Source: Cyanidium caldarium (Eukaryota; Rhodophyta; Bangiophyceae; Cyanidiales; Cyanidiaceae). Taken from it: 64,000 nt of DNA. The position numbers and the translations under genes are program-made. Location of the stretch: positions 773,267 through 837,266 of the forward strand of contig JANCYW010000001.1 of the NCBI GenBank assembly GCA_026184775.1. The letters are read 5' to 3'. Within the stretch, counting starts at the first letter, position 1; every line of letters starts with the position of its first letter. Shown piece by piece: positions 2,775-64,000 of this stretch. The notes under the pieces are model-generated. The model saw nothing but the letters and a program-made list of their open reading frames with translations, searched no databases and was not told the origin of the DNA.

Positions 2775-5700
2775 TTAGGAAGGCACGGCGCCAAATTCCC
2801 GCAACAATTGATGGGCGTGGGCGCGCACATTCGGTGCCGCGTCCGGGCGCTCCAACACCAGCAGCTGCAGCACCTGGCGCAATGCATCGAGAAAGGTGGG
2901 CGGATGCGCCGGAGTGCCCACCCGGCGCCACCACACATGCCACGGCCGAAACGCTTTGAGCGCCGCGCGCACCGACTGCGCCCGCGGTCCGAGGTATGTA
3001 AGGGCGCACCGCAGCGCCTCCACGGCCAGCACGGCTTCGGCGTCGCTCAGGTGAGATTCGCCGGCGGTATGCGCGGCAATGCGCGCGGCGCTCGCCAGAC
3101 ACTCCAAACGTGTTGCCGATGCGCCGACATCGCTGCGTCCCTCGGCGTCTTCCGTGGCCGCGCGCAATAACGAGTAAACCGTCGATCGGGCCAGAGCCGC
3201 CGGATACTGACACGCCAATCCCTCCAGAAACGTCAGCACGGTACGCGCGGAGGCGCCACGTTCAGGGCGCTTCACGGCCGCCTCCAGGCGGTGCCGCGGC
3301 GGTCGACGGCGGCGGTGCGCTTCCCTCCGGAGATACTTCTCCAGCGCCGGCGCCAGCACTTGCTCCCGCATCATCGATGCAAAGGTGTCCGCCTCCATGG
3401 CGGCACTGCACAGCCGCGCTGCCCAGGTCACCACGTGGGTGCACGCTCGAAAGGCCATCCCGGACGCGCCGTCGCGTATATCCTCCATCGCAGCGTCGAT
3501 GACGGCTGCCAAGGCGCGCGCCGCCTCCGCATCCGACACTCGGAAAGCGCCGACGGACAGTTTGCACATCCGACCCAATGCCGCCTGCATCAGCCGATCC
3601 AGTAGGCCGTGCGCTGCACCAAACCGCTCCTGCACGGCGGCCACGCAACGCATCAGGGCGTATGCCACGTCCACCAGCAGCGGCACCGAGGGCGGTGTCG
3701 CTGCGCTGCCGCGCGCCACCTGTTTCACAAACGTCTCCACCAAGTCCAGCACGCGATGGGCGTATTGCGCGTCATGCAGGTCGGCGTCGCGGCGCTGTTG
3801 CCGGGCGTTACGGCGCGGCCGGCCCAACCCGCCCATACGGAATGCCTCCGCCAACCGCGCATCGTACTCCTGCAGCGTGCGCTCGTCCTCCTCGTCGGGA
3901 TTGAGGTCCAGCTCCACCTCCAGATCCGGCACGAGAGAGTGGGGGCTGTTGTCGATGTCTGCCGTATCGGCCGGCGCCTCTTCATCGTCGTCGTCCGAGT
4001 GGCCAGCGTCGCTCTCTGTATCCGCATCGCGTTCTGTCTCGTCCTCCTCAGATGACTCGGAATCGTCGTCGGCGTCGCTGTCGTCTTCATTTTCGCTCGA
4101 GGACGCCTCGGCCGACGACCCTCGCTCCCCCTCTTCTTCGTCGGGCAGGGCGCCGGGCAACTGACTCAGCACGACGCTCATCGCTCGGGCGTCGACACCG
4201 CCGCCTGCACACCAGCACTCAAAGGCGCTGTGGACCGAGCGACGCACAGCCGCCGAGGGTATCTCCAGCAGTTGCACCATGGCCACGGCCACGTCCTCGG
4301 GAGACGAGGCGTTGTCTGGGGTGTCGCCCACCGGTCCCAGCCATTTTGCCGCCAGTTTGTGCAGCGTCGACCGATCGACGCCCAGTTCAGCCGATAAGAG
4401 TTGCTTCTGACGCGCCCAACAGAGCAGAAGTAGGTCGGCGAGCAAAATGCCAGCGGTAATATGGAGCGAGTTGGCCGATGCCTCCAGTGCGGCAACCGTG
4501 TCGAGGCACGCGATGCGTTGCTCGCGGCCGTCCGACGCGGTCGGCACCAAGTGTTTCACCACGTAATCGCGCACCAGCACCCGATACGCGCCCCCTCCAG
4601 ACACCAACAGCGCCGTGAGCAGCCGCATCGCATCCCACACCGCCGCCTCATTCTCAATGCAGCCATGCAACTGCTCCAACAGAGCGCCCAGCGTGTCGGC
4701 CCATTCCGTCGACAGTGCCACCGGACGACCCTCCAGCGCAGTACATGCCATCCGCACTGCCAGACCGGTGTGTTGCTGCTCCATGACGCGGCGAACCGGC
4801 GTAAGCAAGGTGTCTGTGTCGAGCGCCGCCACGCAACGCTCCAGCAGATCGCCGCGGGCCTGTGCCACCGCCTCCAACGATGGCTCGCTCGCAGTCACAA
4901 TGGTCTGCGCCCAGCGCTTCCGCGTGTTCGCGTTCGCGGCGCTCAGGCACCGCAGCAGCGCTTGCCGCGCCGCCTCCGCAGCGGTCGCCGTGGGCGGCGG
5001 CGAGCCAAACCCGGGCGCGTGTCGTCCGTGTAGCAGCAGCGTGTGCACCACCTGCGTCGCCCACACGGGGCCCAAGTCAATGTGCGGAGGTTGGGCCTGG
5101 GTCGTCAGCACTTCCAGCGCCCGGCTCAGCAACAGCGCCCCGGCGCGGCGCTTCTCCGGCACCGCACTCTGTAACAGATGCGGCGCCACCACCAGCTCCA
5201 CGACGTGGCCCAGGCCATGAGGGTCGTTCTCATCGCCGCTCGCTACGCTCATCTCCACAAGCACATTCAGTGCATCGGGCACGTCGGTGCACGCTGTGGC
5301 CGTCAGCGACGCTATCGCCGGTGCCACCACCTCTTTCAGTAGTTGCGGCGCGGCCGCCGGGGCGGTCGCACCCCACAGTGCACATTCGCTCCCTCCATCG
5401 CGTACGCCAAACGCTTGCCGGCAATGCAGCGCCACCGCCAGCGCATCGACGTCGTATGCCGACGAGTGTCCACCGGGGTGTCGCCTCTGTCGACGTTGCA
5501 AGTACCCGCGCACCAGCGCCCGGGCGGATGTGCCATCGGCAAATGCTTGCGGCGACGGCACGGCTTTGTCGATGGAGGCGCAAGCGAGACGCCCACACGC
5601 CTCCGTTGACGTCCACTGCGGCAACTCGGCGAGCGCGCTCAGTTCGTCCAGAATCGGCCGCAGCCACGGAGCGCCGGTCTCACCGTCGATGAACGCCGTT

Positions 5701-6405: not shown

Positions 6406-8334
6406 ATGTCGGGTGCGGAACGTGCGCGTTTCCGGAGGACGACGCTGAACAGAGAGCGCTTGTTGGAGATGGAGGCAGCGCAGAGTTTACCGGAAAAGAC
6501 GGACGCGTTGTCGAGGGAAAGCGACGGCGCTCACGGCTTGTCTGACGCGGACGGCGATCTGGCTCCTAGTGGAGGTGACCAGGGAGCGCCTGCGGAAACC
6601 GGCAATCATAGTCGGGAGGAGAGCGGTACGGCAGCCGCCGCTTCCGAGGCGGACAGCGAGCGCCGTGTGAAATCCAACCTCACGTCGCAAGCGCGTGATG
6701 GCGCAAGTACTCCCGCTCCTGGGTCTGGTTGGCGAGCGCGTTTGGAGCGTTCGGCGCAGCGCGCTCTGCAGGCGGCCTTGGCGCACGTGCCGGAGCGCGC
6801 CGCCTCGTTGGCGTATCGCTTGGTGAAACGGCTGTTCCCGTCGGTGGCGGTGCGCATCCGCGCCGAACTGGCACAGCGACTGGAGGCGCTAGAGCCCCAA
6901 GTACACCCGTATCGAGACGCCGTGGAGACGTTTGCCCGACTGCCGCCCGGGGGCATCGAGGCGTCGCAGATTGTGCAGTGGATGCAGCGGCTGCAGCAGC
7001 GCGAGTCGGCCAAATGGGAGGAGGGCTACGTGAGCGGTGCGGTGTATTCCGGCGAGCGCGAGCACACACAGCTCATGTCGGAGGTGTATGCGCTGTTCAG
7101 TCAGACCAACCCGTTACACGCCGATGTGTGGCCGTCGTGCACCAAGTTCGAGGCCGAGGTGGTCAGCATGACCGCCCGCATGCTCGGTGATGTGCCGGGC
7201 GTGTGTGGCACGGTCACTTCGGGCGGCACCGAGAGCATTCTGCTGGCGTGCAAGACATATCGCGATTGGGCGCAGGCGGAGCGCGGCATCCGCCACCCCG
7301 AGATGGTCATACCGAGCACGGCACATGCGGCGTTCCACAAGGCAAGCGACTATTTTGGCATTCGTCTGCGTCTGGCCGAGGTAGATCCGCTCACCTGGCA
7401 GGTGAAGATGTCCTCGGTGCGACGACTGGTGAATCGCCGCACGGTGCTGCTGGTGGGCTCGGCGCCGCAGTATCCGCACGGCGTCATCGATCCGATCGAG
7501 GCGTTGAGCGCGCTGGCGCAGCAGCGCGGCATCGGACTGCATGTGGACGCGTGCCTCGGCGGCTTCGTGTTGCCGTGGATTGAGCGTTTGCAGCAGCAGC
7601 AGCGCCATCGGCAGCGAACATCTCCCGAGGACGCTTTTCTGGCGCACATTCGCACGCCGCAGTTCGACTTTCGGCTTCCCGGAGTGACGTCCATGTCGGT
7701 GGACACGCACAAATACGGATACGCGCCCAAGGGCACCAGCGTGGTGTTGTACCGCCACGGCGACTTGCGTCGTTACCAGTTTTATGTCATCACCGACTGG
7801 AGCGGAGGATTGTACTCCTCGCCGACGCTGGCCGGCAGTCGGTCGGGCGCGCTGATTGCGGCCTGCTGGGCATCGATGGTGCGCTGTGGCGAGGACGGGT
7901 ATGCCGAGCGCACTGCGGCGATTTTGCGCACCGCCCATCGCATCAAGACCGGTATGGCGGAGCGCGTGCCCGAGTTGTGCATCCTGGGCAACCCGCTGTG
8001 GGTGATCGCCTTCACCGCCGCCGATCCCACCGCCCTCAACATTTACGAGGTGATGGACGCCATGGCCGCGCGAGGTTGGTCGCTGAACGGCTTGCATCGT
8101 CCACCGTGCGTTCACCTGTGTGTGACGCTGCGCCACTGCGAACCAGGTGTGGCCGAGCGCTTCCTGCGCGACTTGCGCGCTGCCGTGGACATTGGGTTGC
8201 GGCTCCGTCGCCGCGGCGATACCGCCGAGCACGGCATGGCACCCATCTACGGACTGGGCGGCACCATTCCGGCGCGCGGCCTCGTGAGAGACTTGCTGCT
8301 CGCCTACATGGACTTGCTTTATCAGGTTTCTTAA
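6406..8334 (+). CDS. DPL1: Sphingosine-1-phosphate lyase
   Basis: A PLP-dependent group II decarboxylase-type enzyme of 642 residues that cleaves phosphorylated long-chain bases into a fatty aldehyde and phosphoethanolamine, the exit step of sphingolipid breakdown. Visible motifs are the 'GTVTSGGTESILLA' cofactor-phosphate loop, the 'HVDACLGGF' segment holding the Asp that pairs with the pyridine nitrogen, and the Schiff-base lysine in 'SVDTHKYGYAPKG' (Lys436). The N-terminal 100 residues are polar and low in complexity. After them an amphipathic or weakly hydrophobic helix near residues 125-150 may stand for the ER anchor of the family. Length is somewhat above the roughly 570 residues usual for the family because of the N-terminal extension. 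Confidence 0.93.
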   Translation: MSGAERARFRRTTLNRERLLEMEAAQSLPEKTDALSRESDGAHGLSDADGDLAPSGGDQGAPAETGNHSREESGTAAAASEADSERRVKSNLTSQARDGASTPAPGSGWRARLERSAQRALQAALAHVPERAASLAYRLVKRLFPSVAVRIRAELAQRLEALEPQVHPYRDAVETFARLPPGGIEASQIVQWMQRLQQRESAKWEEGYVSGAVYSGEREHTQLMSEVYALFSQTNPLHADVWPSCTKFEAEVVSMTARMLGDVPGVCGTVTSGGTESILLACKTYRDWAQAERGIRHPEMVIPSTAHAAFHKASDYFGIRLRLAEVDPLTWQVKMSSVRRLVNRRTVLLVGSAPQYPHGVIDPIEALSALAQQRGIGLHVDACLGGFVLPWIERLQQQQRHRQRTSPEDAFLAHIRTPQFDFRLPGVTSMSVDTHKYGYAPKGTSVVLYRHGDLRRYQFYVITDWSGGLYSSPTLAGSRSGALIAACWASMVRCGEDGYAERTAAILRTAHRIKTGMAERVPELCILGNPLWVIAFTAADPTALNIYEVMDAMAARGWSLNGLHRPPCVHLCVTLRHCEPGVAERFLRDLRAAVDIGLRLRRRGDTAEHGMAPIYGLGGTIPARGLVRDLLLAYMDLLYQVS

Positions 8335-8454
8335 AAGAAGGATACAGGGCGAAAGAGTGGTGGCGAAGACACAACCCGGACAAGGCCGTGGCGAGCGCCG
8401 GCCAATGGAACCAGGTGTCAGGCCTTCGCCCCGGGTCTGATTCCAAGGTGATTT

Positions 8455-9018
8455 TCAGGCCACCGACTGGACCGCTCGAGGCGATCCTAGGGTACTGCGA
8501 CCAAAGGCGGTCGCCCTGTTGCTGCTGCGGGGAAAACGTCGCGCTCTCACCTGCGCGTCGTGTTCCTCTGCGGTGCCGACACGCTCCCAAGCGTCCAGCC
8601 ACTGCGCCAGGGCGCCCACCGATGCCGGCCACGGTTTGGAAGCGTACCGCCGCACGGTGTCGCCGGCCGCCTGCTGCACCCGCTGTCGTGTGTCCTCGGC
8701 GGCGCGATCAATATCCGTCTCGTATCGCGTCAGGTATTGTTGCACGTACGCCTGATACAGCACGGTGGCGCCGCGGGTGTGGGGCAGCACCAACCACAAC
8801 AGGAACGCCACCTTGGCCTCGTGGTAGAACGGGAAGCCCGACGCCACCCAGTCGCCCACCGCCTCGGCCACACTGAACCCCGCGTGTACCACCCAGTACA
8901 TGAGCCACTGCTTGATCTCCGCCGTCTCACTTCGCTTCAGCGCCTTGTACGTGGCGTAAGCGGGGTACAAGTAACCGAACAGCGTGCACAGCGCCGTGGA
9001 GAGGAACGCGCCCAACAT
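8455..9018 (-). CDS. TB2/DP1/HVA22 (REEP/Yop1) family ER-shaping protein
   Basis: The 187-residue product begins with hydrophobic hairpin segments and the family signature 'LYPAYATYKALK', then 'KQWLMYWVVHAGFSVAE', 'FPFYHEAKVAFLLWLVLP' and 'GATVLYQAYV'. These are hallmarks of HVA22/REEP5/Yop1 proteins, which insert hairpins into the ER membrane and curve it into tubules. The C-terminal third is an amphipathic, basic tail. The frame is open a further 77 codons upstream to 9249, but that extension is Gly/Ala/Arg-rich, lacks an ATG before this one and does not look like the family, so Met at 9018 is chosen. A second, more divergent member of the same family lies at 49815-51770. Convergent with S1P lyase and divergent from the glutaredoxin. 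Confidence 0.88.
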   Translation of the reverse strand: MLGAFLSTALCTLFGYLYPAYATYKALKRSETAEIKQWLMYWVVHAGFSVAEAVGDWVASGFPFYHEAKVAFLLWLVLPHTRGATVLYQAYVQQYLTRYETDIDRAAEDTRQRVQQAAGDTVRRYASKPWPASVGALAQWLDAWERVGTAEEHDAQVRARRFPRSSNRATAFGRSTLGSPRAVQSVA

Positions 9019-52324: not shown

Positions 52325-52553
52325 ACTGCGTTGATGGTGCCGGTTCTCGTTGTTCTCAGTAAAGCATCTTGCACGGGGTGTATATTTGTGTATATTTGTG
52401 TGTGTGTGTCTATGCGGGAGCGTGCTCGGTTGCGGGTCGTCATCAAGCGCGCCCGTCTCCTCCGACGAGCACTGACGCTGGGGGACGGTGTTTTGGAGCG
52501 GGCGCTCTCGGTGAACGTGCAAGGGCGTCAGGCGCGTGCGCCCATTGAGCTTC

Positions 52554-53405
52554 ATGCGTTCGTGGCGGACACGCCAACAGGGTGGATGGGAAGAGGCATT
52601 TGTGACCACCGTCTCCTTCAGTGGCTGGCGCCGGGTGGCGCGCGGTCGACGGGCGCTGTGCGTGCGCAGTCAGGACTGCGCCGAACCGCCCGGCGTCCGC
52701 GGCTGGCGCTGCACTCGACGCGCCGTGTTGCAACGGGCACTGGCCACGTTCGCCCTGAGTCTCATCTCGTCAGCCGGCGCGTCTCCGGCGGTGGCCGACG
52801 AGGCGCCGCCCAAGACGTCGTCGCCGGTGGACGCGTCCGTCAACGAGGACGTCTCTGGGCTGCGGTTTGTGGATTTCGTGGAGGGCACCGGCGCGTCGCC
52901 GCAATGGGGTGACTTGTGCGTGATCGAGTACGAGTTGTACACGCTGCCGCGGCCCAAACCGGGTGTGCCCTACCAGGGCGCCCTGAAACGCTACGCTACG
53001 TCGCATCGCCGTAGGCGCGAGGACAGCGGGTATCTGTTGCGGCACGGCAACGGTCGCACCATACGCGGTCTGGAGCTAGCGCTGCACAGTATGCGCGAGG
53101 GCGGGATGCGGCGGGTCATCATTCCACCGCATCTGGCGTACGTCGGCTTCGACCTCGGTCCGATCCCGGAGTGGACGTTTGCACGCAACGCGCTCGCCAA
53201 GAGTTTGGGCAGCGGCAACGTCCTGGTGATGGATGTGCTGCTGGAGCGCGTGATGAAGGACCCGAACATGCCGCCGCATTACACGGACTCCGAGCCGGAT
53301 GAGGAGGAAATCCAGCGCGATATCGAGGAGTACTACCAGGAACACACCGCCAAAGGCGAGGTGCCGCCGGAGGATGACGGCGGCGAGGCTGCGGATGACG
53401 TTTAG
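52554..53405 (+). CDS. FKBP-type peptidyl-prolyl isomerase, predicted thylakoid lumen
   Basis: A 283-residue protein. N-terminal residues 1-80 look like a bipartite plastid/thylakoid presequence: a basic first part, then Arg55-Arg56 before a hydrophobic stretch (LATFALSLISSAGA) and an 'AVADEA' cleavage-like site near 82, as in Tat-imported lumen proteins. The FKBP domain (about 95-225) has 'FVEGTGASPQWGDLCVIEYE', 'GRTIRGLELALHSMREGGMR' and 'VIIPPHLAYV'. The C-terminal ~50 residues are highly acidic. Lumenal FKBPs assist folding and assembly of photosynthetic complexes. Its stop overlaps that of the convergent cis-prenyltransferase gene. Confidence 0.88.
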   Translation: MRSWRTRQQGGWEEAFVTTVSFSGWRRVARGRRALCVRSQDCAEPPGVRGWRCTRRAVLQRALATFALSLISSAGASPAVADEAPPKTSSPVDASVNEDVSGLRFVDFVEGTGASPQWGDLCVIEYELYTLPRPKPGVPYQGALKRYATSHRRRREDSGYLLRHGNGRTIRGLELALHSMREGGMRRVIIPPHLAYVGFDLGPIPEWTFARNALAKSLGSGNVLVMDVLLERVMKDPNMPPHYTDSEPDEEEIQRDIEEYYQEHTAKGEVPPEDDGGEAADDV

Positions 53406-54334
53406 GATGGCCGCGAGTGCACGCCGCCAAAGCGCCGTTGTCGTCGGGCGTACTCGCGTAGCGCCTCGGCGAAATCGGCGGCGGTAAAGTCGGGCCACAG
53501 AACGTCGGTGACGTACAGCTCGGAGTAGGCCGCGTGCCACAGCATAAAGTTGCTGAGTCGCTGTTCGCCGCCGGTACGGATGATGAGTTCCGGGTCGTTG
53601 TGCGCCGCCTTGTGCGCGCGTCGCAAGTATGCCGCGAAGAGCGACTCGTCGACGTCGTCGGCGCACAGCTGGCCGGCCTCGACGTCGTGCGCGATGGCCC
53701 TGGCCACGGCGGCGATTTCGCGGCGTCCGCCATAGTTGAGCGCCACGTTCAGGTTGAGGTTGGTGTGCTGGCAGGTGCTGCGCTCCGCCTCGGCCAGGCA
53801 TGCCTGCATGGGCGGCGGCAGCGCCTCGAGTTCCCCGATAAACCGCAGCCGGATGCCGCTGTCGTGGATGGCCGGCATCTCCGCCCTCAGCGCCGAGGTG
53901 ACCAGCCGCATCAGAAACGCCACTTCGGACGCCGGTCGGCACCAGTTCTCGGTGCTGAACGCGAACACCGTCAGGTCGGCGATACCCCACTGTACACTGG
54001 CGTGCACCACTTGTCGCAGCGCCTCGACGCCGCGCTGATGTCCGTCGGTGCGCGCGCCGCAGTGCAACTGGCCCCAGCGCCCGTTGCCGTCCATGATGAG
54101 GCCTACGTGGCGCGGCACCGGGTCGAGCCGGAACGGCCGCACCGTGCCGTGGGTCGAGTGCGGGGTCGCGGTGTTGAGCGACGGCGGCTCCAAACTGTGC
54201 GACGAGGTCAGGAGGGGTCGCTGGCGGGAGACGGGTGGGTGATGGGAGCGACTGCAGCGGTGAAGGGGGAGCAGGGGTAGGAAGGCTGGATGAGAGTGGG
54301 ATAAGTGAGGGTTTCCATGTATCTCCCTACCCAT
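53402..54334 (-). CDS. cis-Prenyltransferase (undecaprenyl / dehydrodolichyl diphosphate synthase family)
   Basis: A 310-residue enzyme condensing isopentenyl diphosphate onto an allylic primer in cis, making dolichol or other polyprenyl precursors. The substrate-binding 'HVGLIMDGNGRWGQ' with catalytic Asp82, 'TVFAFSTENWCRP', 'NLNVALNYGGRREI', and the C-terminal 'IIRTGGEQRLSNFMLWHAAY' plus 'SELYVTDVLWPDF' are all present. This is the homodimeric UppS/DHDDS-type catalytic subunit, with the 'RTGGEQRLSNF' loop intact. Residues 1-70 form an N-terminal extension, possibly a transit peptide or membrane anchor region. The start is the first ATG (54334); its promoter must lie between there and the divergent arsM start at 54457. 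Confidence 0.93.
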   Translation of the reverse strand: MGREIHGNPHLSHSHPAFLPLLPLHRCSRSHHPPVSRQRPLLTSSHSLEPPSLNTATPHSTHGTVRPFRLDPVPRHVGLIMDGNGRWGQLHCGARTDGHQRGVEALRQVVHASVQWGIADLTVFAFSTENWCRPASEVAFLMRLVTSALRAEMPAIHDSGIRLRFIGELEALPPPMQACLAEAERSTCQHTNLNLNVALNYGGRREIAAVARAIAHDVEAGQLCADDVDESLFAAYLRRAHKAAHNDPELIIRTGGEQRLSNFMLWHAAYSELYVTDVLWPDFTAADFAEALREYARRQRRFGGVHSRPS

Positions 54335-54456
54335 CTTGCTCGGTGTGCTCGTCAGGAGCCGCTGCCCGCAACGCTCGACCCGAGAGCCGCGGCGTTCGTC
54401 GGGCGATTGGGGCGCAGGCGAGAGCGAGGGACGGTGACGCGCGCCGCAAACTCGCC

Positions 54457-55335
54457 ATGAGCCCGTGTGAGTGCAAGTCGCCTTGTGGGGAGAAGCGAGA
54501 CAACAACGATGTGGTGGCGGGCGTGACGGAGTACTACTCGCAGACGCTGAAGACGTCGGCCGACTTGAAGACGACGGCGTGCTGCCCGGCGGAGGCGATG
54601 CCGGCGAGTCACCGGGCGGTGCTGGCTGAGGTGGCCGACGAGGTGCAGGCGAAGTTTTACGGCTGCGGCTCGCCAATACCCGGGGACAGGTCTATTGCGG
54701 GCCTGACGGTGCTGGATCTGGGCTGCGGCACTGGGCGCGACGTGTTCCTGGCGTCGAAGCTGGTGGGCGAGTCGGGTCGGGTGATCGGGGTGGATATGTT
54801 GGAGAGTCAGCTGGAGGTGGCGCGGCGGTACGTGGGGTACCACGCGGAGAAGTTTTTCGGGGATGCGTCTCGGTCCAACGTGCAGTTTCTGAAGGGGTAC
54901 ATTGAGGATCTGCGGTCGACGGAGCCGGTGGGGGTGGCGGACGCGTCGGTGGATCTGGTGTTGAGCAACTGCGTCTGCAACTTGTCGCCGGACAAGGCGC
55001 GCGTGTTTGCGGAGGTGTACCGGGTGCTGAGGGCGGGCGGCGAGTTTTACTTTTCGGACATTTACTGCGATCGCCAACTGTCGGAGGCGGCGCGGCAGGA
55101 CAAGGTGCTGTACGGGGAGTGCTTGGGCGGCGCGTTGTACTTGGAGGACTTTCAAAGGTTGATTCGGGAGGCCGGGTTTTCGGATGTGCGGCTGGTGCAT
55201 TCTGCGCCCGTGGAGGTGGAGGATGCGAGGTTGCGGGAGCTGGTCGAGGGGGTGCGGTTTTTTTCGTGCACGTTCCGTTGCTTCAAGGCAGGTGGGGGCA
55301 GATCCAACGGGAAGGACAGTACCGGAGAGGAGTAG
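54457..55335 (+). CDS. arsM: Arsenite S-adenosylmethionine methyltransferase
   Basis: A 292-residue enzyme that methylates arsenite to volatile or less toxic methylarsenicals. The SAM-binding motif 'VLDLGCGTGRDVFLASKLVG' is at 85-104. The four As(III)-ligand cysteines known from the Cyanidioschyzon enzyme have counterparts at Cys42 or 43 ('TACCPAEA'), Cys70 ('FYGCGSP'), Cys172 ('SNCVCNLS') and Cys222 ('GECLGGALY'), offset by two residues from the published numbering. The N-terminus is Cys-rich (MSPCECKSPC). Algal arsM genes are considered horizontally acquired from bacteria. It lies about 8.7 kb from the telomere, with a divergent 122-bp gap to the cis-prenyltransferase. Confidence 0.96.
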   Translation: MSPCECKSPCGEKRDNNDVVAGVTEYYSQTLKTSADLKTTACCPAEAMPASHRAVLAEVADEVQAKFYGCGSPIPGDRSIAGLTVLDLGCGTGRDVFLASKLVGESGRVIGVDMLESQLEVARRYVGYHAEKFFGDASRSNVQFLKGYIEDLRSTEPVGVADASVDLVLSNCVCNLSPDKARVFAEVYRVLRAGGEFYFSDIYCDRQLSEAARQDKVLYGECLGGALYLEDFQRLIREAGFSDVRLVHSAPVEVEDARLRELVEGVRFFSCTFRCFKAGGGRSNGKDSTGEE

Positions 55336-56324: not shown

Positions 56325-58871
56325 CTAACGTATGGCCACACACTCTGTATCGTTGACACACACCTCGTCGTCGGTGCAACAGCGCACCTTGTTCACAAAG
56401 TTGTCCGAAGGTATGGTGTAGGTGCCGCACTGCTTGGAGGGGTCCCGGCACACGCAGAACGAGGCCGCGGTGCCATAGGTGGTAGTGGTGGTAGATGATA
56501 ACCCCGAGTTGCCGCTGGCTCCCGCGGTGTAGGCGCAGTTCTGGGTGGCGGTGTTGCAGCACTCGGGACCGCACGGCACATACGTGGTAGAGTTGCTCGT
56601 TCCCGAACTGGTGCTGTCGGTGGCCGTCGTTGACCCCGCCGACTGACACACAAACTGCGGCACCTTCTGATAGCACTCGCCGCCGTAGCCCACGCAACAG
56701 CCCGCCTGCAGACACTGCTGCACCGTGGGTGTTGTCGAGGAAGATTGGTGCTGTGGGTGACAGGGCTGCCGCTGAGACTGCGGCACCGCACAGGTGTGCT
56801 CCGCCTGGTAGCAGTATGGATCGTTTCGGAAGCCCACCACAGTCCCACCATCCAGACGCCACACCGCCTCGCGGTTAGCGTCGTAGCAGCATCCCTGGGA
56901 GAGGCAGGTGAAGCGGTTGATGCCCGGCTGGCCGCACGGCTGGCGGGTGGAAGAGGTGTCCGAAGAGGAACACAGGGGCACCGGGGCCTGCACTTCGAGA
57001 GCGGCGGCCGACGCTTGCGGAGCCTGTTCGGCGTCGTAGAAGCACCACGGGGCGATGACGTCGTTGGGCGTCGGTTGCCAGCAGCATCCGGGGATGGCGC
57101 GGCACTCGTCGGGGTAGATGTATGCCCAGCCGCAGGCGATGCGGGAGTGCACCGACACCAGCGCGCATTGTTGGGAGACGCTGCGCAGGGTGCATTGTTG
57201 GGTGTTGGTGTTGAAGCAGCAGCCGACCTGTTCGCACTGTTGGGCGTTGGTGTATTGGTTGGGGCTGCCGCAGGTGGTGTTGGTGCAGAGCGGTGTGGCG
57301 GTGGGGGAGATGGTGGTGGTGGCGGTGGCCGTCGCGGTTGCGGTCGGTGTCGGTGTGGCTGTTGTGGTTGCGGTGGCCGTCGCGGTTGCAGTCGCGGTTG
57401 CGGTCGGCGTCGGTGTAGGCGTTGCCGTGACCTCGGCCAGGAGAAAGAGATCGTTCAGGAAGCCTTCTGCGCCATCAACGTCGTATCCGTCGCCACCAAA
57501 CAAGTACGGGTCGCCACTGGCAGTCGTCCATGACACAGCTACATAGCGAGCGCCCGGCACGGTGGTCGCATTGAATACGCCCTTCTGGTTGTAGATGCCT
57601 GGCTGGTTGGTCGCATTGCTCCCACTCAGCCATGCCCACAGCCCGGTGGCCACGTCATACGACCAAAAGTCGTTCCTAAGGTTCCCGCCAGAGTTGAAAC
57701 CGCCAAACAATTGCAGCTCGCCATTGGGCCCGTCGAACGGCACCGCATAAGAACGAGCTCCTGGATATGCGCTGGTGCTCTGCATGCCTTTGTCGGTGTA
57801 GACACCCCGAGCGTTGACGGTGTCATTGCCCGCGATCCACGTCCATATGGTGGACGTGTAATCGTACACCCACAAATCGTTCAAGAGACCGATGGAGCCA
57901 TCTCCACCAAAGAGATACAACTGGTCAGTGGGGCGCGTCCACGACGTCGCGCCGTAGCGACTCGGTGGCAGCGTCGACGCGCTACCGACGCCCAGTGTGC
58001 CGTAGGATCCCGCGTCGCCCGCCCCGCTGGACCCCGATAGCCACACAAACTCGAACGACGTGAGGTTCAACTGCCACAAGTCGTTGAGGAAACCTTCGGA
58101 ACTTACTCCGCCAAACAGCAACAACCGGTCACCACTCAGCGTCCACGTCGATGCCAACGAACGTGCGCCAGGGTAGTTGTTCCTGCTGGGCACGCCCTTG
58201 GTACCGTACACTCCAGCCGCATTGATGGTCGTCTTGCCAGCGATCCATACCCACTCGTTCGTCTGCGTGTCGAAAAGCCACCAATCGTTGAGGTCGCTCA
58301 ATTCGCCGTTTGTATCGTACCCAAAGCCACCAAAGAGCACCAACGACCCGTTCGAGGTAACCCAGCTCGCAGCGTAGTGGCGGCCGCCTGGCGCATTCGA
58401 CGGACTTGGCACGTACAGAGTGCCGTATTCGCCGGCAACGTCAGTGCTCGTGTCGCTCCCGCTCACCCACTTCCATTGTCCCAGCTGCAGCGAGTACGCC
58501 CACAAGTCGTTGAGAATGCCGAATCTGCTACCAGTGAGATAACCGCTTCCTCCGAACAGCCACAAAAAACCGTCCAGGCCCGTCCATGAAGTCGCTCCGA
58601 AACGCCCTCCCGGCATGTTACTGGCAGCAGACACGTTCTTCGTGCCATACACACCTCCAACGTTGATCGTGTCGTTGCCACTCACCCACGTCCACTCGAT
58701 CGTCGGCACACCCGCTGACACTCCCGTCGCTGCCCGCTCCACCCGCCTGCGCCCCGCCCCACCCCACTCCAACGCCGGCCCGCGTCCCAACACCTGACAC
58801 ACCACCCCGCCCACCACACACGCCGCCACCAGCACCCCCAACAGCACGGCGTGCAGTCTCGACGCAGCCAT
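56325..58871 (-). CDS. Secreted Kelch-propeller protein with C-terminal trefoil (P-type) domains
   Basis: An 848-residue protein starting with a signal peptide (residues 1-25, 'MAASRLHAVLLGVLVAACVV'). Six ~64-residue Kelch-type repeats (about 55-475) have the pattern W.W.SG....G.YGT.G...PG.R....W......LFGG.GY......LNDLW, probably a six-bladed propeller. A Thr/Pro/Ala linker (about 481-523) follows. Then come four trefoil-like Cys modules with '.GCC' cores (about 532-562, 577-613, 645-687, 702-736), and a Cys-rich end with 'CGPECC' and 'VCRDPSKQCG'. It is likely a cell-wall or extracellular glycan-binding protein. The Kelch part resembles bacterial propeller proteins; trefoils are eukaryotic. 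Confidence 0.85.
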   Translation of the reverse strand: MAASRLHAVLLGVLVAACVVGGVVCQVLGRGPALEWGGAGRRRVERAATGVSAGVPTIEWTWVSGNDTINVGGVYGTKNVSAASNMPGGRFGATSWTGLDGFLWLFGGSGYLTGSRFGILNDLWAYSLQLGQWKWVSGSDTSTDVAGEYGTLYVPSPSNAPGGRHYAASWVTSNGSLVLFGGFGYDTNGELSDLNDWWLFDTQTNEWVWIAGKTTINAAGVYGTKGVPSRNNYPGARSLASTWTLSGDRLLLFGGVSSEGFLNDLWQLNLTSFEFVWLSGSSGAGDAGSYGTLGVGSASTLPPSRYGATSWTRPTDQLYLFGGDGSIGLLNDLWVYDYTSTIWTWIAGNDTVNARGVYTDKGMQSTSAYPGARSYAVPFDGPNGELQLFGGFNSGGNLRNDFWSYDVATGLWAWLSGSNATNQPGIYNQKGVFNATTVPGARYVAVSWTTASGDPYLFGGDGYDVDGAEGFLNDLFLLAEVTATPTPTPTATATATATATATTTATPTPTATATATATTTISPTATPLCTNTTCGSPNQYTNAQQCEQVGCCFNTNTQQCTLRSVSQQCALVSVHSRIACGWAYIYPDECRAIPGCCWQPTPNDVIAPWCFYDAEQAPQASAAALEVQAPVPLCSSSDTSSTRQPCGQPGINRFTCLSQGCCYDANREAVWRLDGGTVVGFRNDPYCYQAEHTCAVPQSQRQPCHPQHQSSSTTPTVQQCLQAGCCVGYGGECYQKVPQFVCQSAGSTTATDSTSSGTSNSTTYVPCGPECCNTATQNCAYTAGASGNSGLSSTTTTTYGTAASFCVCRDPSKQCGTYTIPSDNFVNKVRCCTDDEVCVNDTECVAIR

Positions 58872-61340
58872 ACGCCACTCTAGCACTCACCAGCACACCT
58901 GGAACGAGAAAGATGACTCTACTTGGAATGATTCTTGGAGTAGTGGTCACGCAAACGCCCGCGCACAACTCCAAAGCACGTGCGGGGCCGTTCCGCGTCG
59001 TCAATGTGTTTTGAATTGCCCGCGATCGCCACCGAGCCGTCCTCTGGAAGGGAAAAATGGCGCGCGCATTTTGGCGCCAGATTTGATCGGGCATCGGCGC
59101 GCACGGTGTTGCGGGGTGGACGGGGAAGGGCGTGCGTGCGGCATGGAGGATGGGGGTGGCGTGGTCTGCGACACCTGTTCGGCATCTGTTGGGGAATGGT
59201 GACAGTAGTGGGTGGGTGTCGGGAGTGTCACCAGTCGTCGGTGGAGGGCGATGGGGAGTGGGTGTGGAAGGGGGCAGGTGGTGGCGTTGCCCCACACCTT
59301 GGGTGGCAGCGGTGTGCCCGTGCGATCGAGCAGCGGACATCGCCCACAGCAGTCATCATGGACGACGCGCTTCTTGATACTGGCGCGTTCAATGACCGAC
59401 TTGAGCCGGTGGTGTGCGCTGTCGGTGCCGACGAGGCCAGAGTGCCCTGCAGACCGAGTGGCGCAGCCGGTCGCCCAGCAGCGTGCTCGACACACGCGCA
59501 CAGGGCGCTGTCGCCGAGACCGCTCTGGCGTGGGGACCGTCTGTTCGGGCGCTGGTGGCACCCGGTGATGATGAGGATGACCATCGAGTGTTCGGCTCCA
59601 TGCGATATTGAATGTAAACGTGTGCGGCATCGGGTGGGTACCGACGGTCACTGGGAGCGTCGATGCGGATCCCAGCAGACCCAGAGTGTCCGGCCATCCC
59701 GAGTGGTCAACGCCACCGGCATCCGGTGGAGCGCGGCACTCACCTCGCGGTGGAGCATCCGACCACCCGATCGGACACTGACCCGGCACCCATCGCCACA
59801 TCGGGTGCACCGATCGATGGTGGTCGCAGCACTGTCCAGCGGTATGCGTGTGAGGGCGTGGCCGTCGGCGCGGTGTGTGGTGCCGCGAACAGGCAGTGGT
59901 GGCCACATCGACTGGGCCAGCAGCGGCGCCTCCGCACACACACACACCACCCTCCCGGCACACCCCAGCAGGCCCGGTGGAAGACCTGTCTCCTGGTGCC
60001 CGGTGCACTGGTGACTCCGGGCAGTGGCGCCCACATCCCCTCTGCAATGGGCCCGGCGATGATGCCGGTGTTGGGGTGGTGGTGGTGGAGGAGGCGCGCT
60101 CATCGCCGGGCACCAGCCATGTCGCCTGCCAGAATGGCGGTTCGTGTCGGTGAGCGGGTTGATTGTGGGCACCCCGGGCGCACTGCATCGAGTGTCCACC
60201 GGTCACGGTGACCGCTCGCTTGACGCTGCACCGTCGCCGTCCCCACTGGAGCCTACGCCGCCCAGGTGACCGCGACCACGCCCCTCACAGCCGCCCGTCT
60301 CCCGCACTGATCGAGAACGACTCCCGCAATCGAATGGCATTGACAACCACCAACGAGGCGCATTGCGCGGCGAGCCCAGTCAATGCCCACATCAGCGCCA
60401 GCACGGTGCCAGGGTATTGCACATGGTCGTGGAGACGGAGGCCAACGGCTGAGGGTGTGTGTATGTGTGCATGGGCGCGCACACACGCTCTCGCCTATCG
60501 GCACCCAGAGCGATCTCTGATGAGCGGTGGGGAGCACCCACCGGGCACGCACATAAGCACATAGGCACACCGCGCCGTGTCACGGAGAGGTGGCTGCTCC
60601 CAGACTGGGGGGCAGCGCCCACATCCACCCGACGACTGTGGTGAGAGGAAGGGAGTCGGGAGTGGTGCGTGATGTGTGTGTGTTCGTGTGTGCGAGGTGG
60701 TGGTTGTGGTCATCATCACCATCGGTGTCGTCGTCATCACTATGGTCGTCGATCTTCGGGTGCGCCCTCTCAGGGACACCGGGCGCACCGGGTGGCGGTC
60801 GGAGACATCTGTTGTCGCCGCGCAGTTGGCCCCGAAGCAGGTCCGTGCATCGAGCAGTGCAGGCGTTGCCGGTGGCGCATGCACTGTCTCACCTCCGCAA
60901 ACGTCCACAGCTGGTGGCGGTTCTGGTCATTCAACGGCAGGCGCGTTGTCGACAAACACACCTGACGCTGTCGACGAGGAGATGGCGTGCCGCCGGCGCG
61001 CCAGAGTATTGTCGGGGTGCCTGTACGCTTGGCCGGCGCATTGTGTCATGGTGGATGCGGTGCCGGCGTCACTGGCAGTGCTGGTCACTGAGATGTTGGT
61101 GATGGTGGGTGAAGAATGGAGCTGGTGTATGTGCGAGGTAGTGATGGGAGTGTTGGGTGAGAGAGAGGCATGTGGCGTATGAGGTGCAGTATTGGGCGAC
61201 GAATGGATCATTGTGGTATTGCGCATTGGGTGTGTGTGTGTGTGTGTGTTGGGGCGGGCGGTTACGTGGCCGGATGGTGTTAGGGATGCGGGATGGCGGA
61301 TTTCGGGTTTTCGCGCTGTGGGATGGTTGATGGTTGAGAG
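58872..61340. pseudogene. Subtelomeric region with possible remnants of a cysteine-rich extracellular protein
   Basis: No intact gene is evident in about 2.5 kb. On the plus strand, short pieces in different frames look like extracellular modules: near 59580-59690 a thrombospondin-type-like segment ('CSAPCDIECKRVRHR...GHWERRCGSQQT'), near 59990-60050 a sushi-like end ('ARCTGDSGQWRPHPLC'), and near 60125-60153 'CQNGGSC' as in EGF-like domains. 'CIEQCRRCRW' follows at about 60860. Frame changes between these pieces suggest a decayed gene, or several. The minus strand is also open for 401 codons (59001-60206) but this looks like noise. Low confidence throughout. Confidence 0.3.
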
Positions 61341-61344
61341 AGGG

Positions 61345-61422
61345 CAACGCCGATTGAAGGCGATTGCCGATTGCCGATTGCCGATCGAGGAACATCGCCG
61401 ATTACGGATTACTGATTGAAGG

Positions 61423-61461
<39 letters not shown>

Positions 61462-61712
61462 CGAGGAAAATCGCCGATTACGGATTAGTGATTGAAGGCG
61501 ATTGCCGATTGCCGATTACGGATTAGTGATTGAAGGCGATTGCCGATCACTGATTGCCGATTGCCGATCGAGGAAAATCGCCGATTACGGATTACTGATT
61601 GAAGGCGATTGCCGATCACTGATTGCCGATTGCAGATTGCCGATCGAAGACAATCGCCGATTACGGAATAGTGATTGAAGGCGATCACTGATTGCCGATT
61701 GCCGATCGATCG
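61345..61712. repeat. GATTGCC-based tandem array
   Basis: About 370 bp made of the heptamer 'gattgcc', its variants, and a recurring block of roughly 35-45 bp: 'cgaggaaaatcgccgattac' followed by 'ggatta(c/g)tgattgaaggc'. Blocks restart at about 61387, 61463, 61568 and 61642 with different numbers of heptamers between them. It is a complex subtelomeric minisatellite. Confidence 0.9.
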
Positions 61713-63687: not shown

Positions 63688-63858
63688 TGAATTGGGTGAG
63701 ATCGGGCGAAGGGGTGTGAGTTGGGTGAGATCGGGCGACCGGGTGTGAGTTGGGTGGGATCGGGCGACCGGGTGTGAGTTGGGTGGGATCGGGCGACCGG
63801 GTGTGAGTTGGGTGAGATCGGGCGAAGGGGTGTGAGTTGGGTGTGAGTTGGGTGGCAA
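63688..63858 (+). repeat. 29-bp subtelomeric tandem repeat, six copies
   Basis: Units begin at 63688, 63717, 63746, 63775, 63804 and 63833. The consensus is 'tgagttgggtgagatcgggc' followed by 'gaccgggtg'. They are nearly identical, with variants 'gggatc' for 'gagatc' and 'gaagggg' for 'gaccggg'; the last is shortened and runs into the telomere. Confidence 0.93.
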
Positions 63859-64000
63859 GGGGGGGGAATGGGTGGGGAATGGGGGGGAATGGGGGGGAAT
63901 GGGGGGGAATGGGGGGGAATGGGGGGGAATGGGGGGGAATGGGGGGGAATGGGGGGGAATGGGGGGGAATGGGGGGGAATGGGGGGGAATGGGGGGAATG
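63859..64000 (+). repeat. Telomere: (AATGGGGGGG)n, chromosome end
   Basis: About 14 consecutive units of 10 bp, 'gggggggaat', run to the end of the window with the G-rich strand 5'->3' toward the end, as expected at a right telomere. The first unit is irregular ('gggtggggaat') and the last has six Gs. Cyanidioschyzon merolae telomeres are described as AATGGGGGG, so this is the same type with one extra G. Confidence 0.92.

Follow-up and report, generated by a model that had tools for sequence, protein, structure and literature searches.

Why should the gene nearest to a chromosome end of a small red algal genome encode a bacterial-type Kelch propeller joined to four trefoil domains, and why should so many versions of it exist in that genome? 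The question is raised by a stretch of 64,000 nucleotides from Cyanidium caldarium 063 E5 (contig JANCYW010000001.1, positions 773,267 to 837,266; hereafter the window), in which a Kelch+trefoil (K+T) gene lies 5.1 kb from the telomere. A first-pass annotation, made from the letters alone, had described a signal peptide, six Kelch repeats, a Thr/Pro/Ala linker and four Cys-rich trefoils in a protein of an acidophilic alga, and both the layout and the host have held up: the frame of 848 residues is intact, the Pfam trefoil model scores 64.4 bits (cut-off 21) over four stretches with the Cys residues in P-type order, and the predicted propeller has six blades of four strands each, carrying GG and Trp motifs, the signal peptide being assigned by inspection and a predicted helix only. 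The most far-reaching reading considered here, with a probability of roughly 0.35, is that the subtelomeres of a free-living red alga house a recombining set of genes for secreted recognition propellers. These would combine a bacterial-type Kelch part with an algal secretory module of trefoils and would be produced mainly by walled diploid cells; exchange between chromosome ends would reassort sequence blocks, and selection would keep the BC-loop face and one trefoil insert diverse.

The assembly comprises 20 contigs and 8,787,356 bases, and a search of it with the K+T protein returned at least 57 matches (match counts from this search are lower bounds). Intact K+T genes stand at nine ends, C1R (the right end of the window), C6L, C7R, C10L, C14R, C15L, C15R, C16L and C20L, and relics at 20 others (C1L, C3R, C4L, C5L, C5R, C8L, C8R, C9L, C9R, C10R, C11L, C13L, C13R, C14L, C16R, C17L, C17R, C18R, C19R and C20R). 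Copies and relics thus occupy 29 of the 40 ends, each within 13.5 kb of the end, and all 29 are read away from the telomere. Paralogues at other chromosome ends, and duplication and variation favoured by such a position, had been anticipated in the first-pass annotation, and both are found there. The nine intact copies are recombination mosaics, a feature of recombination-diversified surface repertoires. Across 2526 gap-free alignment columns (427 variable, 260 informative), 49% of informative pairs are incompatible, and the pairwise homoplasy index (PHI) is 0.247 against a permuted mean of 0.498 +/- 0.009, none of 1000 permutations being as low. C1R and C16L are identical in all six Kelch segments and 22.6% apart in trefoil 3; C14R and C20L are at most 0.4% apart across the Kelch part and have different linkers, that of C20L being the linker of C6L.

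The Kelch part and the trefoil-3 insert are islands of divergence between alike stretches. Among the nine copies, divergence is 0.9% in the 1.45 kb upstream, 7-11% in the segments covering codons 67-516 (Kelch), about 1-2% in trefoils 1-2, 13% in the segment with the trefoil-3 insert, 1-5% in the rest of the coding sequence and 9% in the 400 bases downstream; in six copies, the low-divergence 2.5 kb upstream is followed by a rise to 5-11%, and the homology is gradually lost past about 3 kb after the ATG. The same pattern is seen at fourfold sites, taken at codons with invariant first two bases, where divergence is 0.142 in the Kelch part (0.114-0.169, 179 sites) and 0.005 in trefoils 1-2 (0-0.015, 45 sites), the values for the linker, trefoil 3, trefoil 4 plus tail and the signal region being 0.194, 0.059, 0.043 and 0.032. 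A difference of some 28-fold at silent sites within one gene is unlikely to come from protein constraint, so that exchange, or else selection against homogenisation, varies along the gene, and the islands speak for diversity being maintained more than for simple drift.

Within the propeller, protein variation gathers in a class of sites consisting of the BC loops and the two residues after a conserved Arg at the entry of strand A (BC/R+2; 64 of 433 Kelch sites, 15%). Here 47 of 64 sites are variable, compared with 66 of 369 elsewhere in the Kelch part, and 31 of the 35 sites with three or more residues fall in this class, the other 4 lying outside it. The ratio of nonsynonymous to synonymous polymorphism (pN/pS) is 1.13 (0.82-1.61) in BC/R+2 and 0.20 (0.14-0.26) in the remaining Kelch sites, a contrast matched by random codon labels in none of 2000 trials, and in the strands it is 0.11, about tenfold below BC/R+2. 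When the classes are taken from the predicted secondary structure, pN/pS is 0.82 for the three residues before strand A, 0.39 for the other DA loops and 0.16 for the strands, and on the opposite face the AB and CD loops have 11 variable sites of 46 and a pN/pS of 0.21. In the trefoil-3 insert the ratio is 0.68 (0.42-1.10), compared with 0.31 in the remainder of the trefoil half. Altogether, the nine intact copies hold seven distinct BC-loop sets. The propellers of LZTR1, KLHDC2, Keap1 and KLHL20, which are parts of intracellular E3 ligases, are about 20-22% identical to this one over the aligned part; unlike them, the propeller here is of prokaryotic type and stands behind a signal-peptide-like start. 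The substrate face of KLHL20 and Keap1 consists of BC and DA loops, the DA loops of KLHL20 being largely buried, according to the accessible part of the sources. By analogy, the variation would be concentrated on the face that binds ligands in Keap1-type propellers.

It is an even bet, in our estimate, that the K+T genes encode a family of secreted or wall proteins in which a disulfide-rich base and a spacer carry a variable recognition or binding propeller; secretion, binding, glycosylation, selection and a ligand are what we infer for it. Most likely, walled diploid cells would secrete the protein into their wall or matrix, where the trefoil block and the Cys-rich tail may form a disulfide-knotted base resisting acid and protease, the linker would serve as a spacer, probably glycosylated, and the BC/strand-A face would be where the six-bladed propeller binds a partner. 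Exchange among chromosome ends would keep the upstream region and trefoils 1-2 alike and reassort sequence blocks, binding-face diversity being kept despite it, and the two together would yield the seven BC-loop sets on one scaffold.

Several observations weigh against such a repertoire, and some of them can be read in favour of a protein with a structural part in the wall or matrix, its BC loops unconstrained and drifting and its duplication raising dosage, with no recognition role at all. The BC/R+2 motif classes were chosen after the alignment had been seen, 66 of the 113 variable Kelch sites lie outside them, and BC loops delimited from predicted secondary structure give a pN/pS of 0.79 (0.52-1.22). 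The interval around 1.13 includes 1, so that positive selection is not demonstrated, and a loop ratio near 1 is what unconstrained loops would show. Variability among 37 rows of relatives likewise peaks at these positions (R+2 3.31 and BC 2.60 bits, compared with 1.72 for AB, 2.02 for CD and 1.43 for strands), as expected if these positions are merely less constrained. Moreover, 13 trefoil-like genes are raised in diploids in bulk data, which argues against expression one at a time and agrees with a structural role of many expressed copies (Plant Cell 2026, accessible part). None of the four trefoils has the full residue pair of a lectin for GlcNAc-alpha-1,4-Gal of the trefoil factor (TFF) type, a function that was considered and rejected. 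What drift in unconstrained loops leaves unexplained is the roughly 28-fold gap at fourfold sites between the Kelch part and trefoils 1-2 and the presence of a second island in the trefoil-3 insert, and we regard a purely structural role as somewhat unlikely.

The islands might also be produced by an unequal chance of exchange, conversion reaching the upstream region and trefoils 1-2 and being rarer in the repeated Kelch part, or by a one-time import of diverged blocks from a lost relative, neither of which needs selection on a face. Silent sites are raised throughout the Kelch part and the linker and not in the loops alone, and the Kelch blades are internal repeats that could misalign. Furthermore, the telomere-proximal block (about 88-95% identity) and the 3' flank (9% divergence) are as diverged as the Kelch part; with other parts of the subtelomere equally diverged, Kelch divergence is not unusual there, and the alike stretches may be the odd part, which again tells against the repertoire that we propose. 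On the other hand, the Kelch identity of C1R and C16L and the near identity of C14R and C20L show that exchange does occur in the Kelch part, and the pN/pS of 1.13 in loops and 0.11 in strands calls for differences in constraint or selection in any case, so uneven exchange as the whole explanation appears improbable. A last concern is that copies up to 98-100% identical over kilobases could have been scrambled when near-identical chromosome ends were assembled, which would turn the mosaics into artefacts. Nine full-length frames free of stops and the low pN/pS of the strands point to a careful assembly, as does the telomere repeat present at each of the 21 ends examined (C1R and the 20 left ends, C16L with few units), and we consider an artefact very improbable.

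Block-wise diversification at chromosome ends is best known from parasites. If the reading of a maintained recognition repertoire is true, such diversification would be at work in a free-living alga whose genome is below 9 Mb as well. It would provide a non-parasitic parallel to the gene families behind antigenic variation or allorecognition, with neighbours, microbes or viruses of the hot-spring mat as possible targets, and would document one route from a bacterial-type propeller to a eukaryotic secreted module. With the pattern of islands and face, a subtelomeric expansion that had no explanation becomes the basis of a claim about recognition that can be tested. The VESA1/ves genes of Babesia are likewise varied by segmental gene conversion and show block-wise mosaicism (PMC7485966, accessible part); unlike them, the K+T genes belong to a free-living phototroph and give no sign of switching or of one-at-a-time expression.

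Where the two halves of the protein came from can be traced unequally well. The full-length protein matched 1467 proteins, and among the best 120 of these both halves are covered only by P0002 (Cyanidium) and P0004 (Cyanidiococcus), the remaining 118 covering 47-65% of the query; the six of them that carry an organism name are all bacterial. A scan of prokaryotic genomes gave at least 436 relatives, the best 80 loci belonging to bacteria and Asgard archaea at 39-46% identity. The Kelch tree has 94 rows: P0004, the Kelch parts of five of the nine Cyanidium copies, 11 protein matches and 77 prokaryotic loci, three of the 80 having been removed by filters on coverage and stops. It places the algal Kelch parts as a single clade with support 100/98 among prokaryotic rows, phyla being mixed near it, and picks out no single donor. 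The propeller that had been proposed as a horizontal gain is therefore of prokaryotic type, and transfer from bacteria is supported and not proved, since the collection behind the tree holds no eukaryotes and hence no eukaryotic outgroup. Propellers of this type are also encoded on three Lokiarchaeal contigs (L038, L039 and L098), with 41-44% identity, and these three group as a single clade.

Searched separately, as the first-pass annotation had advised for both parts, the trefoil region found only P0002 and P0004 among 4675 candidates drawn from 5.8 billion proteins, and a profile built from trefoil proteins matched 13 of the 7993 candidates scored, the two named ones both being Cyanidium; in viral contigs, 94 pattern matches to trefoil homologues yielded no confirmed case. 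In the Cyanidium genome itself, an internal match away from the ends is a trefoil-only gene (C10:427680, P0123, CDCA10G3079) with a hydrophobic start and Thr-rich linker of its own, and further internal matches are three other trefoil proteins on C7 and C20 and a weak one on C3 (E 0.5). As P0123 exists with no Kelch part, the joining of a propeller to a secreted trefoil gene would be a simple history, and K+T may have arisen by such a fusion. An extra trefoil match (G000:C9:10661-10801, 29.4 bits) lies in an open frame of 378 residues near the left end of C9.

The fold prediction that had been suggested succeeded for the six-bladed propeller and less so for the trefoils: in the full-length AlphaFold model the trefoil half mostly has a predicted local distance difference test (pLDDT) score below 50, and the half modelled separately is better, still moderate, and gives weak Foldseek matches (best E 0.012). 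Two enzyme identities were rejected for the propeller. Galactose oxidase has seven blades and a Tyr-Cys cofactor, whereas the propeller here has six and residues 26-528 hold no Cys in between; N-acetylneuraminate epimerase (NANM) fails with 22.3 bits for PF24996 against a cut-off of 45. Glycan binding by the trefoils, also part of the first-pass annotation, has been weakened. Vertebrate TFF1-3 share the six-Cys P-type motif, and trefoil 2 aligns to TFF3 (6v1c); the sugar contacts of TFF3 are an Asp or Asn before Cys2 and a Trp before Cys6. In K+T trefoils 1-4 the residue before Cys2 is T, A, P and P, with no Asp or Asn in any of the four, and the Trp is found in trefoil 2 only. As the contact pair is incomplete in all four, action as TFF-kind lectins is unlikely. 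The three internal trefoil proteins on C7 and C20 (L030, 3099-4241, minus strand; L032, 2868-4106, plus strand; L031, 2647-3273, minus strand) have one domain each with Asn or Asp plus the Trp; the Asn form of TFF1 retains binding at pH 2.6, and these three are candidates for acid-stable trefoil lectins.

Part of this was in the literature already, and the architecture, which had been taken as unusual, is no novelty. Cho et al. 2023 (PMC9812998) described, for the same species and strain, Kelch domains fused to trefoil or hint domains by a Thr/Pro/Ala-rich peptide in Cyanidiales subtelomeres. This K/T/H family was reported as the most prevalent subtelomeric duplication in Cyanidiales, with about 12-24 copies per species, no assignable function and, in Cyanidium, arsM genes near the Kelch genes and co-duplicated with them, the emphasis being on the >80% identity of the copies. 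The Kelch-linker-trefoil layout behind a signal-peptide-like start and the duplication at chromosome ends place the present gene in that family. The full layout also occurs in Cyanidiococcus CCYA04G1438 (P0004; Pfam Kelch and trefoil, 47% identity over 95% of the query), which differs in being longer, with a Gln-rich spacer in trefoil 4 and a Ser/Thr tail. In C. merolae, chromosome ends carry trefoil genes (Nozaki et al. 2007, accessible part), and trefoil-factor genes, some of them Kelch-trefoil, were raised under nickel stress, many genes of this kind going up or down (accessible part of that study). The accessible part of a further study reports that the 13 trefoil-like genes of Cyanidium caldarium are expressed predominantly in walled diploids, that Galdieria partita is without trefoil-like genes and that gene targeting is feasible in the alga, and proposes that trefoil proteins protect from low pH, in convergence with vertebrate trefoil factors (Plant Cell 2026). 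The words loop, mosaic and gene conversion do not occur in the main text of Cho et al. 2023, whose K/T/H section names no loops (supplements outside scope), and no pattern of mosaics, islands or one variable face was found in the listed titles or abstracts on Kelch, gene conversion or red algae (supplements and subscription papers outside scope). While architecture and subtelomeric duplication are thus published, mosaics, divergence islands and the concentration on one face are not in those texts. In PMC9812998, section 6 and Table 1 disagree, the text giving 12.0 Mbp for Cyanidium and 8.8 for Cyanidiococcus and the table 8.79 (063 E5) and 12.0; the present assembly fits the table.

Table 1. 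Features of the K+T gene, its neighbours and the adjoining chromosome end, in window coordinates.
Feature	Positions	Strand	Remarks
K+T gene, 848 aa	56325..58871	-	intact frame; 5' end toward telomere
Signal-peptide-like N-terminus, residues 1-26	58794..58871	-	inspection of sequence and predicted helix 3-28
Six-bladed Kelch propeller, residues 56-484	57420..58706	-	profile match and predicted structure
Blade 1 BC loop, residues 109-119	58515..58547	-	differs between paralogues
Blade 2 BC loop, residues 183-193	58293..58325	-	differs between paralogues
Blade 3 BC loop, residues 256-261	58089..58106	-	differs between paralogues
Blade 4 BC loop, residues 324-329	57885..57902	-	differs between paralogues
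Blade 5 BC loop, residues 392-398	57678..57698	-	lowest variability among the six BC loops
Blade 6 BC loop, residues 461-471	57459..57491	-	differs between paralogues
Thr/Pro/Ala linker, residues 485-528	57288..57419	-	length unequal among paralogues
Trefoil 1, residues 529-560	57192..57287	-	six Cys
Trefoil 2, residues 569-610	57042..57167	-	six Cys, Trp before Cys6
Trefoil 3, residues 634-687	56811..56972	-	six Cys
Trefoil 3 variable insert, residues 663-686	56814..56885	-	paralogue alignment
Trefoil 4, residues 694-733	56673..56792	-	six Cys
Cys-rich C-terminal tail, residues 742-844	56340..56648	-	12 Cys
Upstream 2.5 kb of K+T	58872..61371	.	0-2.6% divergence (200-base steps, six of nine copies)
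CGATTGC-type minisatellite	61349..61709		in part of the telomere-proximal block that matches several other ends repeatedly
Telomere repeat AATGGGGGGG	63849..64000	+	sequence
Methyltransferase gene	54235..55335	+	PF13847, 7.8e-29; adjoins K+T
cis-Prenyltransferase gene	53405..54676	-	PF01255, 3e-76; next inward
FKBP-type isomerase gene	52536..53402	+	PF00254, 1.3e-08; next inward

The relics fall into two classes by the start of their match, which lies at codons 605-631 in 14 of the 20 and at codons 714-739 in the other six (C8R, C16R, C17L, C17R, C19R and C20R), the starts being confirmed by end mapping at seven left ends (L013, L016, L017, L019, L021, L022 and L025). With starts in only two classes, a few old truncations seem to have spread from end to end. 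Relics were also considered as donors of the trefoil-3 insert and rejected in this role, the match breaking inside the insert, between residues 666-668 and 682, in the seven relics of the 20 that were examined for it (C1L, C5L, C5R, C9L, C9R, C13L and C14L). The telomere-proximal sequence of the window's end is common to the 20 left ends, and in the longer matches this block is mostly about 88-95% identical between ends. It recurs further inward at C1L (e.g., 3602-5260 and 6908-8566) and C4L, so that whole end blocks appear to be stacked in tandem. The telomere unit itself, AATGGGGGGG, has one G more than the AATGGGGGG reported for C. merolae. On the inward side, the methyltransferase gene adjoining K+T fits the co-duplication of arsM and Kelch genes described by Cho et al. 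2023, and is a candidate ArsM gene.

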